From assembly GCA_037975125.1 (NCBI GenBank), contig CM075850.1, forward strand, positions 70,227,890-70,291,889: a DNA stretch of 64,000 bases. The letters are read 5' to 3'. Below, piece after piece: positions 2,805-47,003 of the stretch. Source of the DNA: Latrodectus hesperus. Its lineage: Eukaryota > Arthropoda > Arachnida > Araneae > Theridiidae. The notes beneath the pieces were generated by a model. That model was not told the origin of the DNA and ran no database searches. It saw nothing but the letters and a program-made list of their open reading frames with translations. Numbering within the stretch: position 1 is the first letter of the stretch; every line of letters starts with the position of its first letter. Made by a program: the position numbers and the translations under genes.

Positions 2805-2962
2805 TTATAAATTTGCTATTTGGTTCCCCTGCAGGAGTATTTCCGAAAGACTCAATTGCTTAAAGTTATTAATATCATAAAAATGTCTATTTGTCTTCAA
2901 GCAATTTATTAAAACGACGTCGCATAAGCATACCATAGCAGAGCACCGATCTTCATTTTTAC
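2805..2962 (-). CDS. PLA2-A exon 4 (second Asp, C-terminus)
   Basis: Too short to stand out as an open frame, it is found by phase continuity and the motif CLCD. The acceptor is CTTTTAG before 2962. The exon runs 158 bp to a TAA at 2807-2805. It supplies the Asp equivalent to Asp99 and four of the ten cysteines. It is 12 codons longer than the copy B counterpart, because copy B gained an earlier stop. Confidence 0.88.
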
Positions 2963-44100: not shown

Positions 44101-47003
44101 TCTCTCACACTATATTCTAATTACTTTTAATAAAATAATTAACAGGATTTAAGAAAGTTTTAAAAGTCACCTTCGGATCCACATCCGTAATTCTTTTTTT
44201 AAATTTATTCCATTTGAAATACATGCTTGTAATTATTCGTGTTACATCTTTACCCTTAAAGTGCTAGTTCAGTAAATTCCCGACAATCCATTTTATGGTA
44301 TATACTCGATGTCTAAATTCCAAAAACCTTTAATACTTAAAACCATTTATAAAGAAGTGTTTGAATGCAAAAATATCGTTTTGTTTGATTTTCTTAACAA
44401 ATAAATATACAAATTTGTGCGTATTAAATAGTTTCATTCAACTTCAAGTTATAAGTATGATTATACAACCATTGTTTATTTAAATTGTTCAAATATATAT
44501 TTTTATTGGTTTGTTTCCTTTTTTCGAAATTTTGTGTATTTCTAGCTAAATCGGCTTATTCGTAACAACCAAAATTTCACGGTCAATCGGGAATTTATTA
44601 TATATGCTGATATCTGTCTTGCATATCAAGAATGTTTCTTTTTATTAATTGGAATATTTTTAGTAGTTAAGAATAAATGATAAAAGTATCATTACCCATC
44701 AATTGGATCGACGGGGTCACCAGATCCACCTAATCCGCAATAGTGTCCATAATCTCCAAAATCTGTTGGTTGAAAGTCGGTGAGGGTTTCCAGCATAGTC
44801 GCCAGTATTACAGCGCTACGGCGGCTCCTTCGATGTACACCTGCAAATGTAATCTTGTAATCACGAATAATATCATTATGAAATAAAAACAAATGTAAAC
44901 AAAGTTTTTGAAAGTGATTTGCAAACACTATCTGAAATGTAAATTACTTGTGCACTCTCTTTGTAACCTAACGGAATTTCAGTGTTAAAATATAAAGATA
45001 AAAAAGTTAGAACATGAAGTGATTCGGTCAAAAATAATGTAAATTTAAATTATTGCATTTATTAAATAAACTTCTCTTTAGTTATCTTGAATTCATTTGA
45101 AGAAAAGCTGATTTTAATGGCCACGAGACGTTTTACCGATATAATATCTCACTGTTTATTTTAAAAACGCAAAGAATCGAGTTTAATCCAATATACAATA
45201 TTATCTCTTCCGCGGTCTCCTTCTCTATTATATGCATTAACTACGTTCCACAAATTACCATTTGATTCTAGAAAATCATAGGTAATTACATGATGGTTAT
45301 ACAAAATCAACTCTAGAATTTCATAAAAATATTGAATGATATATTAAATGGGAATTACAATTTTGATCTGGAAATTCACTGATGTGCAAGGACAAAATCA
45401 TCTCTTAGTTATGAAAATTCGTAAAGATTTATATAATACGTTAGTTAGTTCTAGCGCTATGTTAGTAGATGAATAAAAACAAAATCACATCATTCTATTC
45501 TAGATTCTATTCTAGTTATAAAAGATTTAATGCACACTGTACCAAATTTAAAAATGATAAAATCACAGACTAGTATAAGAATAATAAAAAGCTCATCTTG
45601 ACTCCAATTATATTTTTCATTAAATATCCATTTATTGCATAATATTTTCTCATATAATAAATAGATTTATTATATGATATTATTCCAGATAGTTTAAGCT
45701 TTTCTCTTTTTGTAAAAATTATAAGATTTGTACCATATTTTCAAAATAAATTGCATAAATTATTTTTTATGTGTGCTTATTTCTTTTTATTTATTTAATG
45801 ATTTATTTATTTTATTTATTTTTTCTAAAATGTGAGAAAGTAGTAGTTAACAAGAATTTGATTTTTCGTAAAAAAACAATAAAAGACAAAAGTATTCTAA
45901 AACATAATGGCAATTTTAAAGCAAATAAATAAAATAATGAAAATGGTTTAAGAATACCGAATAGTACAAAATAATAATCATTCTTTATTTGATTGACTGT
46001 TTGGTAGAGAAGAGTTAAATTTTCATAACTTTTTTTACTGAAATGTATAAAATATTCGTAAAAAGTTTTGGAATATAGTTTAGAGCATTCGATTTTAATT
46101 TAAAGAATTATTCTTGAAATTAAAGATGAGAAATTAAATTATTCAAATTTACAGATGGAATTTTACTTATTGGGTGTCAAATCATTGAGAATACGACAAG
46201 AAATAAATTATTATAATAGATGAAGAAATAATAATAATAAATTTATTATAGTTTTTGCAAGCTGATTATCTATTCTGAAGTCAAATTTTCGGTTGCTCGA
46301 ATTTATTGATAATATTGTTGTATAATTATCAATAATATTGTAGAAATAATTAAAAATAATTTTAAAAAAAGGAAGAGAAATTCAATTTATTACTGTTTAT
46401 ATTAAAATCATATGAAATCTTGTACTCTATGAATGAAAAAATAAAATCTTGAATCAAAAAGACGTTATTTAACCTTCGCTTAAAATTATTATTAAAAGAG
46501 TTATATTTAAAAATGAAATAAAAAGTTCTGCATTTCAAAAAGTAATCATATTACAGCATTTTTCCGATTTTTTAAATATACATTTCCATAATTTTTAATG
46601 ATTATCTGTATTTCATATTTTTTTCACATATGTTTTCAATTGTTGTATTTATGTAATTGTTCTAATTAGTCCTTATTTTCTTATTCAGATGGAACATTTT
46701 TACAGGATTTTATACTTTACAAACTATGTTTTTTGATGCAAACTGAATGTTGAAAATATTAAAAAATGACGCACAAATAGTTTTCAGAATTTACGTGTGG
46801 TTCTAAAAGTATTTCGTTGGGTGTCATTTTGATATATTTCCAATTAATATATCTGCAATTAATTTCAATAAATCATCGTGGAAATGAGAAGGATTAATTG
46901 AAAAACATTTTCTGAAGTATTTGTAGAACTTTATACCATTGTTGTCTCCATTAGCAACTGACAAGAGCAGAAGCCCGAAGTAGATCAATCTCATCGACGA
47001 CAT
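35011..47003 (-). CDS. Secreted phospholipase A2 (PLA2-B), four exons
   Basis: Paralogue of PLA2-A. The exons are 46937-47003, 44696-44840, 41270-41397 and 35011-35132, with the same phases (1, 2, 1), GT-AG introns of 2096, 3298 and 6137 bp, and 153 codons. The signal peptide, the RRSRR segment, the loop YGHYCGLGGSG, the active site CCQSHDYCY and CLCD with the second Asp are all present, as are the ten cysteines of the five universal disulfides. The Cys27 position is His. No stop or frameshift is visible. It differs from PLA2-A mostly at replacement sites in exons 2-4 and ends 12 codons earlier. Intron 3 is enlarged by the SINE-bearing block and a Tc1 element. Its biological role (venom, digestion, immunity) is not shown by the sequence. 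Confidence 0.93.
35470..35573. repeat. (TA)n microsatellite
   Basis: TA tract of about 100 bp with a TGTA break near 35554, lying 70 bp before the SINE. Confidence 0.95.
35647..36070 (+). mobile_element. tRNA-derived SINE with (CAA)n tail
   Basis: The head holds an A box-like TGGTAGCCTAGTGG (35653-35666) and a box B-like GTTTGATTCC (35700-35709), at tRNA spacing. A body of about 350 bp follows and ends in AACAACAACA. The tail closely resembles those of the LINEs in copy A (ATAA, two bases, then AACAACAAC), which suggests that LINE machinery moved it. The short open frame across it is not a gene. It is present only in copy B. Confidence 0.75.
39670..41118 (+). mobile_element. Tc1-type transposon in PLA2-B intron 3
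   Basis: 1449 bp with inverted ends CAGTAGGTAAAAGAAGTATT and, inverted on the right, CAGTGGGTAAAAAAAGTATT. Each end is flanked by TA (39668-39669, 41119-41120). Copy A has the empty site near 5060. It is unrelated in end sequence to the Tc1 element at 53071. Confidence 0.92.
39843..40850 (+). pseudogene. Tc1 transposase, inactivated
   Basis: From ATG 39843 the frame stops after 11 codons. Further on the pieces give WKKVIFSDESKFNIF (first catalytic Asp, about 40288-40335), YYFQQDNDPKHT (second Asp, about 40571-40606) and TPPQSPDLNPLGNL (about 40659-40700). In the last motif the usual PIEN is PLGN, so the third catalytic Glu is replaced by Gly. There is also a frameshift between 40437 and 40527. 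It cannot move by itself. Confidence 0.85.
41270..41397 (-). CDS. PLA2-B exon 3 (active-site His/Asp)
   Basis: 128 bp, with acceptor TTTCTATAG before 41397 and donor TGTG|GTAGGC at 41269. The CCQSHDYCY core matches PLA2-A exactly. The following charged segment differs at about 15 residues against about 2 silent changes (by eye). A Tc1 element lies only 150 bp into the following intron. Confidence 0.92.
41527..41611. repeat. Compound (TA)n(TG)n(TA)n microsatellite
   Basis: It lies in PLA2-B intron 2, 130 bp upstream of exon 3. In copy A the matching place (5475-5500) has only CACACATACATATAT, so this tract expanded in B. Confidence 0.9.
43321..43578. mobile_element. Mutator-like MITE, copy B
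   Basis: 258 bp with ends GGCACAGATGCCGTATAAT and, inverted, GGCACAGATGCTGTATAA. It is flanked by a perfect 9-bp repeat AAGTTATTC (43312-43320 and 43579-43587). It is the orthologue of 10566-10828. The ends and the target duplication are better preserved here than in copy A. Confidence 0.75.
44696..44840 (-). CDS. PLA2-B exon 2 (pro-segment and Ca-binding loop)
   Basis: 145 bp, with acceptor TTTGCAG before 44840 and donor GATGG|GTAATG at 44695. By eye it differs from PLA2-A exon 2 at about 17 bases and 10 residues, nearly all in the N-terminal helix region; the Ca-loop end is unchanged apart from Asn/His. Confidence 0.92.
46937..47003 (-). CDS. PLA2-B exon 1 (signal peptide)
   Basis: ATG at 47003-47001, donor AATG|GTATAA at 46936. 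It is nearly identical to PLA2-A exon 1, with one Lys-to-Asn change at the last complete codon. The flanking upstream 100 bp is also conserved, which suggests a shared promoter region, though no TATA box can be named with confidence. Confidence 0.88.

Follow-up and report, generated by a model that had tools for sequence, protein, structure and literature searches.

The window analysed here is a stretch of 64,000 nucleotides (nt) of the genome of the spider Latrodectus hesperus (assembly GCA_037975125.1, contig CM075850.1, positions 70,227,890 to 70,291,889 of the forward strand). It contains two intact four-exon genes on the minus strand, with GT-AG introns and open frames, which we call A (2805-15047) and B (35011-47003) and which code for proteins of 165 and 153 amino acids, respectively. 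Judging from their sequences, both are genes of secreted-type phospholipase A2 (PLA2), of the family PF00068. In gene A, exon 1 (14981-15047) carries the start codon and a hydrophobic leader, a putative secretion signal; exon 2 (12305-12449), which has GT-AG borders, codes for a pro-piece ending in RSRR, the N-terminal mature part and the calcium loop; exon 3 (5215-5342) codes for the active-site stretch CCQSHDYCY and then a variable stretch; and exon 4 (2805-2962) codes for the final four of the ten cysteines of the mature protein, the CLCD motif and the C-terminal tail, up to the stop. The gene models place exons 1 to 4 of B, also on the minus strand, at 46937-47003, 44696-44840, 41270-41397 and 35011-35132, the last one ending 12 residues before the end of A.

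The PF00068 profile matches the spliced mature proteins with scores of 93.7 and 89.5 bits, for a curated cut-off of 32.1. No NCBIfam family is assigned. The calcium loop (YCGLGGSG) and the CCQSHDYCY stretch, which holds the His-Asp site, can be aligned with those of bovine pancreatic PLA2 and do not differ between A and B; among solved structures, 153 distinct sequences match mature A, the best being 1gp7 (E=5.5e-19). Each mature protein has ten cysteines, and when aligned to the bovine enzyme these fit five of its seven bridges. In the bovine bridge numbering, Cys11-Cys77 is the group I bridge: both of these cysteines are absent in A and B, so that they lack the mark of group I, and bovine Cys27 and Cys123 are absent too. 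An R-x-R-R pro site is also found in the proteins of Parasteatoda and of three orb-weavers, which suggests that these precursors may be activated by a furin-type protease. Since the leader, the RSRR site, the ten cysteines and the calcium and active-site core are kept in both copies, A and B most likely both still cut phospholipids. Their predicted net charges (-7 and -6) offer no useful contrast.

The two genes belong to two duplication units of about 30 kb each, in the same orientation and arranged head to tail. The unit with gene A spans 439-30868 and the unit with gene B spans 32659-64000; the matches between them are collinear, interrupted by unit-specific stretches, and the duplication extends past the right end of the window, with matches to the unit of A running on to about 73916. 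Within 100 kb on either side, searched as twenty 10-kb pieces (an exon at a piece border could escape), there is no third copy. A protein search of the assembly in which only the best candidates were scored, and which could miss distant relatives, gave no other close copy. Of its 12 matches with E<=10, six correspond to exons 2-4 of the two genes themselves. Another four are distant exons resembling secreted PLA2 on contigs C7, C9, C5 and C2 (34-54% identical to A), and the remaining two are weak matches on contigs C4 and C925. On C7 (locus L031), an exon 2-like and an exon 3-like match of the secreted PLA2 type lie about 640 nt apart. When the exon 1 region was searched for as DNA, two occurrences were found in the assembly among the best candidates scored. 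The PF00068 family search of the genome listed four matches, including exon 2 of A below the cut-off, and missed B; it matched none of the 14 control genomes.

The divergence between the two copies is not evenly spread. A and B differ at 1/67 positions in exon 1, 15/145 in exon 2, 19/128 in exon 3 and 24/119 in that part of exon 4 which is coding in both copies. As for noncoding DNA, 698/9752 positions differ in the six aligned blocks that span the genes, 110/1194 within 250 nt of exons 2-4, and 406/6765 (6.0%) in the intergenic parts of the duplication. According to Nei-Gojobori counting, the mature part has 48.8 changes at 296.3 replacement sites and 9.2 changes at 72.7 silent sites, values which enter the tests as 49/296 and 9/73. 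Replacement divergence is higher than divergence of the near-exon noncoding DNA (odds ratio (OR) 1.95, p=3e-4), of the six blocks (p=7e-8) and of the intergenic parts (p=5e-10). Silent sites show no significant excess over the near-exon noncoding DNA (p=0.24).

These results can be compared to a preliminary description made from the letters of the window, which proposed tandem duplicates of secreted-type PLA2, as the gene models and the duplication alignment confirm. Its counts for exon 1 (1 of 67) and exon 3 (about 19 of 128) agree with ours, while exon 4 lies inside the coordinates that it gave but does not figure in its counts. Exon 2 is diverged as it said, but at 15 positions rather than about 17; the silent changes in exons 2 and 3 are indeed few, but Nei-Gojobori counting gives five of them, for 29 replacements, rather than about three. 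The range of 3-10% proposed for the introns holds roughly, but the noncoding divergence is more widely spread, from 3.7 to 11.6% per aligned block and from 1 to 22% in 150-nt windows. As it stated, there is no change in the calcium loop, in CCQSHDYCY or in CLCD. As for the conserved signal peptide, 18.9% of the noncoding windows of equal size differ as little as exon 1 or less, so that the low divergence of this exon between A and B is not beyond chance and cannot be distinguished from the noncoding background.

The known proteins closest to A and B come from other spiders. Of the 5 matches found among 21 candidates, the closest is a phospholipase A2 from Latrodectus hasselti (UniRef A0A482Z8K9), which matches 70% of protein A with 86% identity. 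Its first 22 residues are identical to those of A and, of the 83 mature residues up to the end of exon 3, it has 69 in common with A and 58 with B; these similarities make it the likely ortholog of A, in a comparison that covers the part through exon 3 and the one sequence found. In its last exon, the deposited protein deviates from the family, which may come either from the sequencing or from a truncated gene. The phospholipase A2 of Parasteatoda tepidariorum (A0A2L2Y6H2) is 51% identical and has a like layout, with ten mature cysteines in matching places and the RxRR pro site, and a pro-piece that is three residues longer than in A and B. Two isoform models of Parasteatoda, P0003 and P0004, have a common middle with an added basic stretch and different last parts, which suggests alternative last exons or merged neighbours. 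When these isoforms were used as queries for an alternative last exon, with a stricter threshold, the window gave the known exons only, and one weak match (E=0.046) was obtained outside it. The PLA2s of the orb-weavers Larinioides, Trichonephila and Nephila are full-length homologs with the same core as A and B.

The replacements between A and B spare the catalytic core. Residues 56-80, which include the calcium loop and the active site, form a run of 25 residues without change (permutation P=0.0004, for 40 changes over 123 sites). Elsewhere, the changes do not concentrate at positions that are variable in related enzymes: 10/40 positions changed between A and B vary among the three orb-weaver orthologs, against 19/83 unchanged positions (OR 1.12, p=0.82), a comparison limited by the distance of the orb-weaver proteins, whose identity to A and B is 46-51%. 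Up to the end of exon 3, the mature parts of A and B have 58/83 residues in common, fewer than the three orb-weaver pairs (63, 68 and 71/83), in raw counts that are not scaled to the neutral divergence of these pairs. Lastly, four outgroup proteins served to polarise 41 positions at which A and B differ, including one in the pro-piece: the outgroups are like A at 12 positions, like B at 10, like neither at 18 and like both at one, which shows that both copies have changed. The lack of association with orb-weaver variability, the lower sharing between A and B and the presence of derived states in both copies speak against a mere loss of constraint at tolerant sites.

We conclude that the mature enzymes A and B have probably undergone accelerated evolution, and that positive selection is its likely, although not proven, cause. 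The noncoding background is overdispersed (variance 51, compared to 9.8 for a binomial distribution, over 62 windows), and we therefore resampled windows. This test, too, supports an excess: taken together, the three mature exon parts have 58/368 differences, whereas random triples of noncoding windows matched to them in length average 25.7 (P=0.008). Other results weigh against the conclusion. Considered one by one, exon 4 lies outside the background, its level being matched by 2.9% of noncoding windows, but exons 2 and 3 lie inside it (23.7% and 8.8%, respectively). Moreover, silent sites are more diverged than the intergenic parts (p=0.03) and noncoding DNA near exons 2-4 is more diverged than noncoding DNA further away (p=0.005). 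This rise, common to silent sites and to the noncoding DNA close to the exons, means that part of the excess seen in the exons is a local effect.

The ratio of replacement to silent divergence (dN/dS) does not exceed 1 significantly. By counting, the mature part has a ratio of 1.35 (bootstrap 0.70-3.12, P(dN<=dS)=0.195), and exons 2 and 3 together have a ratio of 1.55 (0.64-8.3); taken separately, exon 2 is at 2.13, exon 3 at 1.09 and exon 4 at 1.18. Pairwise codon maximum likelihood, run with a custom script on five codon sets, puts the ratio at 1.94 in the mature part (p=0.12) and at 1.44 in exons 2 and 3 (p=0.46); it is 1.92 when residues 56-80 are excluded (p=0.14), 2.20 when residues 125-129 are excluded as well (p=0.09), and 1.70 for the stretch that ends with the last cysteine (p=0.24). 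All the nucleotide-level tests rest on the two sequences, A and B, a number with which site or branch models are not possible. Two outcomes had been named in the preliminary description as speaking against diversification, a dN/dS clearly below 1 outside the motifs and exons that diverge no more than introns; neither is what we find. Its proposal that the pair is diversifying is thus supported in that replacements exceed intron and intergenic divergence around a frozen core, but not as regards a dN/dS significantly above 1, and the excess includes the local effect.

The scenario that we favor, and which we consider somewhat better than an even bet, is that of a PLA2 pair diverging under selection for two different enzymes, with gene conversion disfavored at the exons. 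A segment of about 30 kb was duplicated head to tail in a theridiid lineage, giving two complete secreted-type PLA2 genes; outside the core, the mature enzymes have since gained replacements, in both copies, faster than the surrounding noncoding DNA. Selection for two distinct enzymes, which may differ in substrate, partner or target surface, would be the likeliest cause. Conversion being disfavored at the exons may explain the higher divergence at and near exons 2-4. A bolder version, which we regard as rather doubtful, is that this lone tandem pair in a spider repeats the mode of snake venom PLA2s, with a remodelled surface, a frozen core and selection against conversion that produces peaks of divergence centred on the exons amid homogenised introns. 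The footprint of such selection would be the profile of noncoding divergence around exons 2-4, which decreases from 9.6% within 100 nt to 8.9% at 101-250 nt, 6.6% at 251-500 nt and 4.5% at 501-1000 nt; beyond 1000 nt, however, the divergence is up again, at 7.8%.

The divergence of the noncoding DNA can also be read in another manner. The copies may be older than they look, with a neutral divergence of about 10-14%, the introns having been homogenised by patchy gene conversion and the mature exons evolving almost neutrally, under relaxed constraint, except for the core. Such a history would account for the dS of 0.138 in the mature part, for the divergence of the six stretches flanking exons 2-4, taken up to 200 nt, of which five are at 8.5-12.6% and one is at 5.0%, compared to that of the intergenic parts (6.0%), for the strong heterogeneity of the blocks (chi-square p=7e-19) and for dN/dS values that are compatible with 1. 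It is less easily reconciled with replacements that exceed even the near-exon noncoding divergence, with changed positions that show no preference for sites variable in orb-weavers, and with the conservation of the ten cysteines and of the core in A and B, and we see it as a tentative explanation, with a minor but real share of the probability. It is far less likely that copy B is turning into a pseudogene. Its tail is shortened and it has replacements beside the calcium loop; the DNA past its early stop can still be aligned to the tail of A, and at the 26 differing positions for which there are L. hasselti data, this protein agrees with A 16 times, with B four times and with neither six times. 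However, the latter bias may merely reflect orthology to A; the splice borders, the frame, the ten cysteines and the active-site residues of B are intact, and in the comparison with the outgroups, the changes are spread over both copies.

The preliminary description suggested that the two enzymes could be venom components, which the available parts of the theridiid venom and genome literature do not support. In the accessible text on L. hesperus, the venom-gland-specific lipases that are named are a phospholipase C and an AB hydrolase, with no PLA2 (PMC4058007), and the main text on the venom gland of L. tredecimguttatus mentions neither phospholipase nor PLA2 (PMC3842942); the same is true of the main texts on the venom of Steatoda nobilis (PMC7354476) and on the genome of L. 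elegans (PMC9154082), and the term "phospholipase A2" is indexed zero times for two other theridiid papers (PMC8746590, PMC5314461). Outside venom, excerpts of published studies report that the digestive fluid of the orb-weaver Nephilingis contains one PLA2 (PMC5013568), and they also report PLA2 paralogs whose expression is specific to silk glands (PMC10099834), and phospholipase A2 as 34% of the phospholipases in the eggs of L. tredecimguttatus (PMC5198572). On the other side, again from partial texts, PLA2 transcripts are present in the venom gland of Cupiennius (0.04%), where the authors raise a housekeeping role as a question (PMC6468893), and in the venom gland of a tarantula, 16 contigs resemble PLA2s of several groups, with several duplications and no fragments in tandem mass spectrometry (PMC8309857). 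A review lists PLA2 in the venoms of seven spider families, but in the part seen Theridiidae are not in the PLA2 row and are listed with an undetermined phospholipase (PMC11399385). Whichever side they support, these studies concern PLA2s that may be distinct from A and B. We consider that a venom use of A and B is unsupported, that a digestive or other role is at least as likely, and that the pair is quite probably made of digestive, silk-gland, egg or immune enzymes that would diversify in response to diet or microbes, which is compatible with any of the histories discussed above.

The window also contains stretches that resemble mobile elements. In the unit of B, about 10.9 kb (53067-63923) are flanked by 176-nt inverted repeats that are 88% complementary, and two frames inside match the RNase H domain of TNP-like transposases; the stretch is probably a P-element-like DNA transposon, judging from these features, and the corresponding site in the unit of A, near 19368, is without it. 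It harbours a nested mariner-like element at 56131-57028, whose 34-nt inverted repeats are perfect and which includes a Mos1-type helix-turn-helix domain. In the unit of A, 7847-9808 has no counterpart at that place in the unit of B, lies in a region of raised GC content and includes a frame that matches RNase H and is retroelement-like. A frame at 51156-51518 contains a Tc5-type transposase DNA-binding domain. A search for phage DNA gave no match.

Accelerated evolution is known from the multigene families of snake venom PLA2s, so that the acceleration of PLA2 duplicates is in itself of a kind already described. Elapid toxin genes under positive selection have been reported (PMC3023746, in the part available). 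The L. hesperus pair resembles the snake families in that the copies are in tandem, replacements exceed intron divergence and the active site is kept; it is unlike them in that only two copies were found, dN/dS is not significantly above 1 and there is no support for a venom use, and its origin, in arachnids, is separate. Among the literature matches listed, considered from their titles and the beginnings of their abstracts, none describes this accelerated pattern in a spider PLA2. Should selection not be involved, A and B would be an ordinary tandem duplicate under loose constraint. If it is, this spider enzyme pair would be an independent case of the evolutionary mode of snake PLA2s, and it would draw attention to an enzyme secreted by widow-type spiders, with a target yet to be found; a pair of two copies with introns that can still be aligned would be a clean system in which to separate selection from gene conversion.

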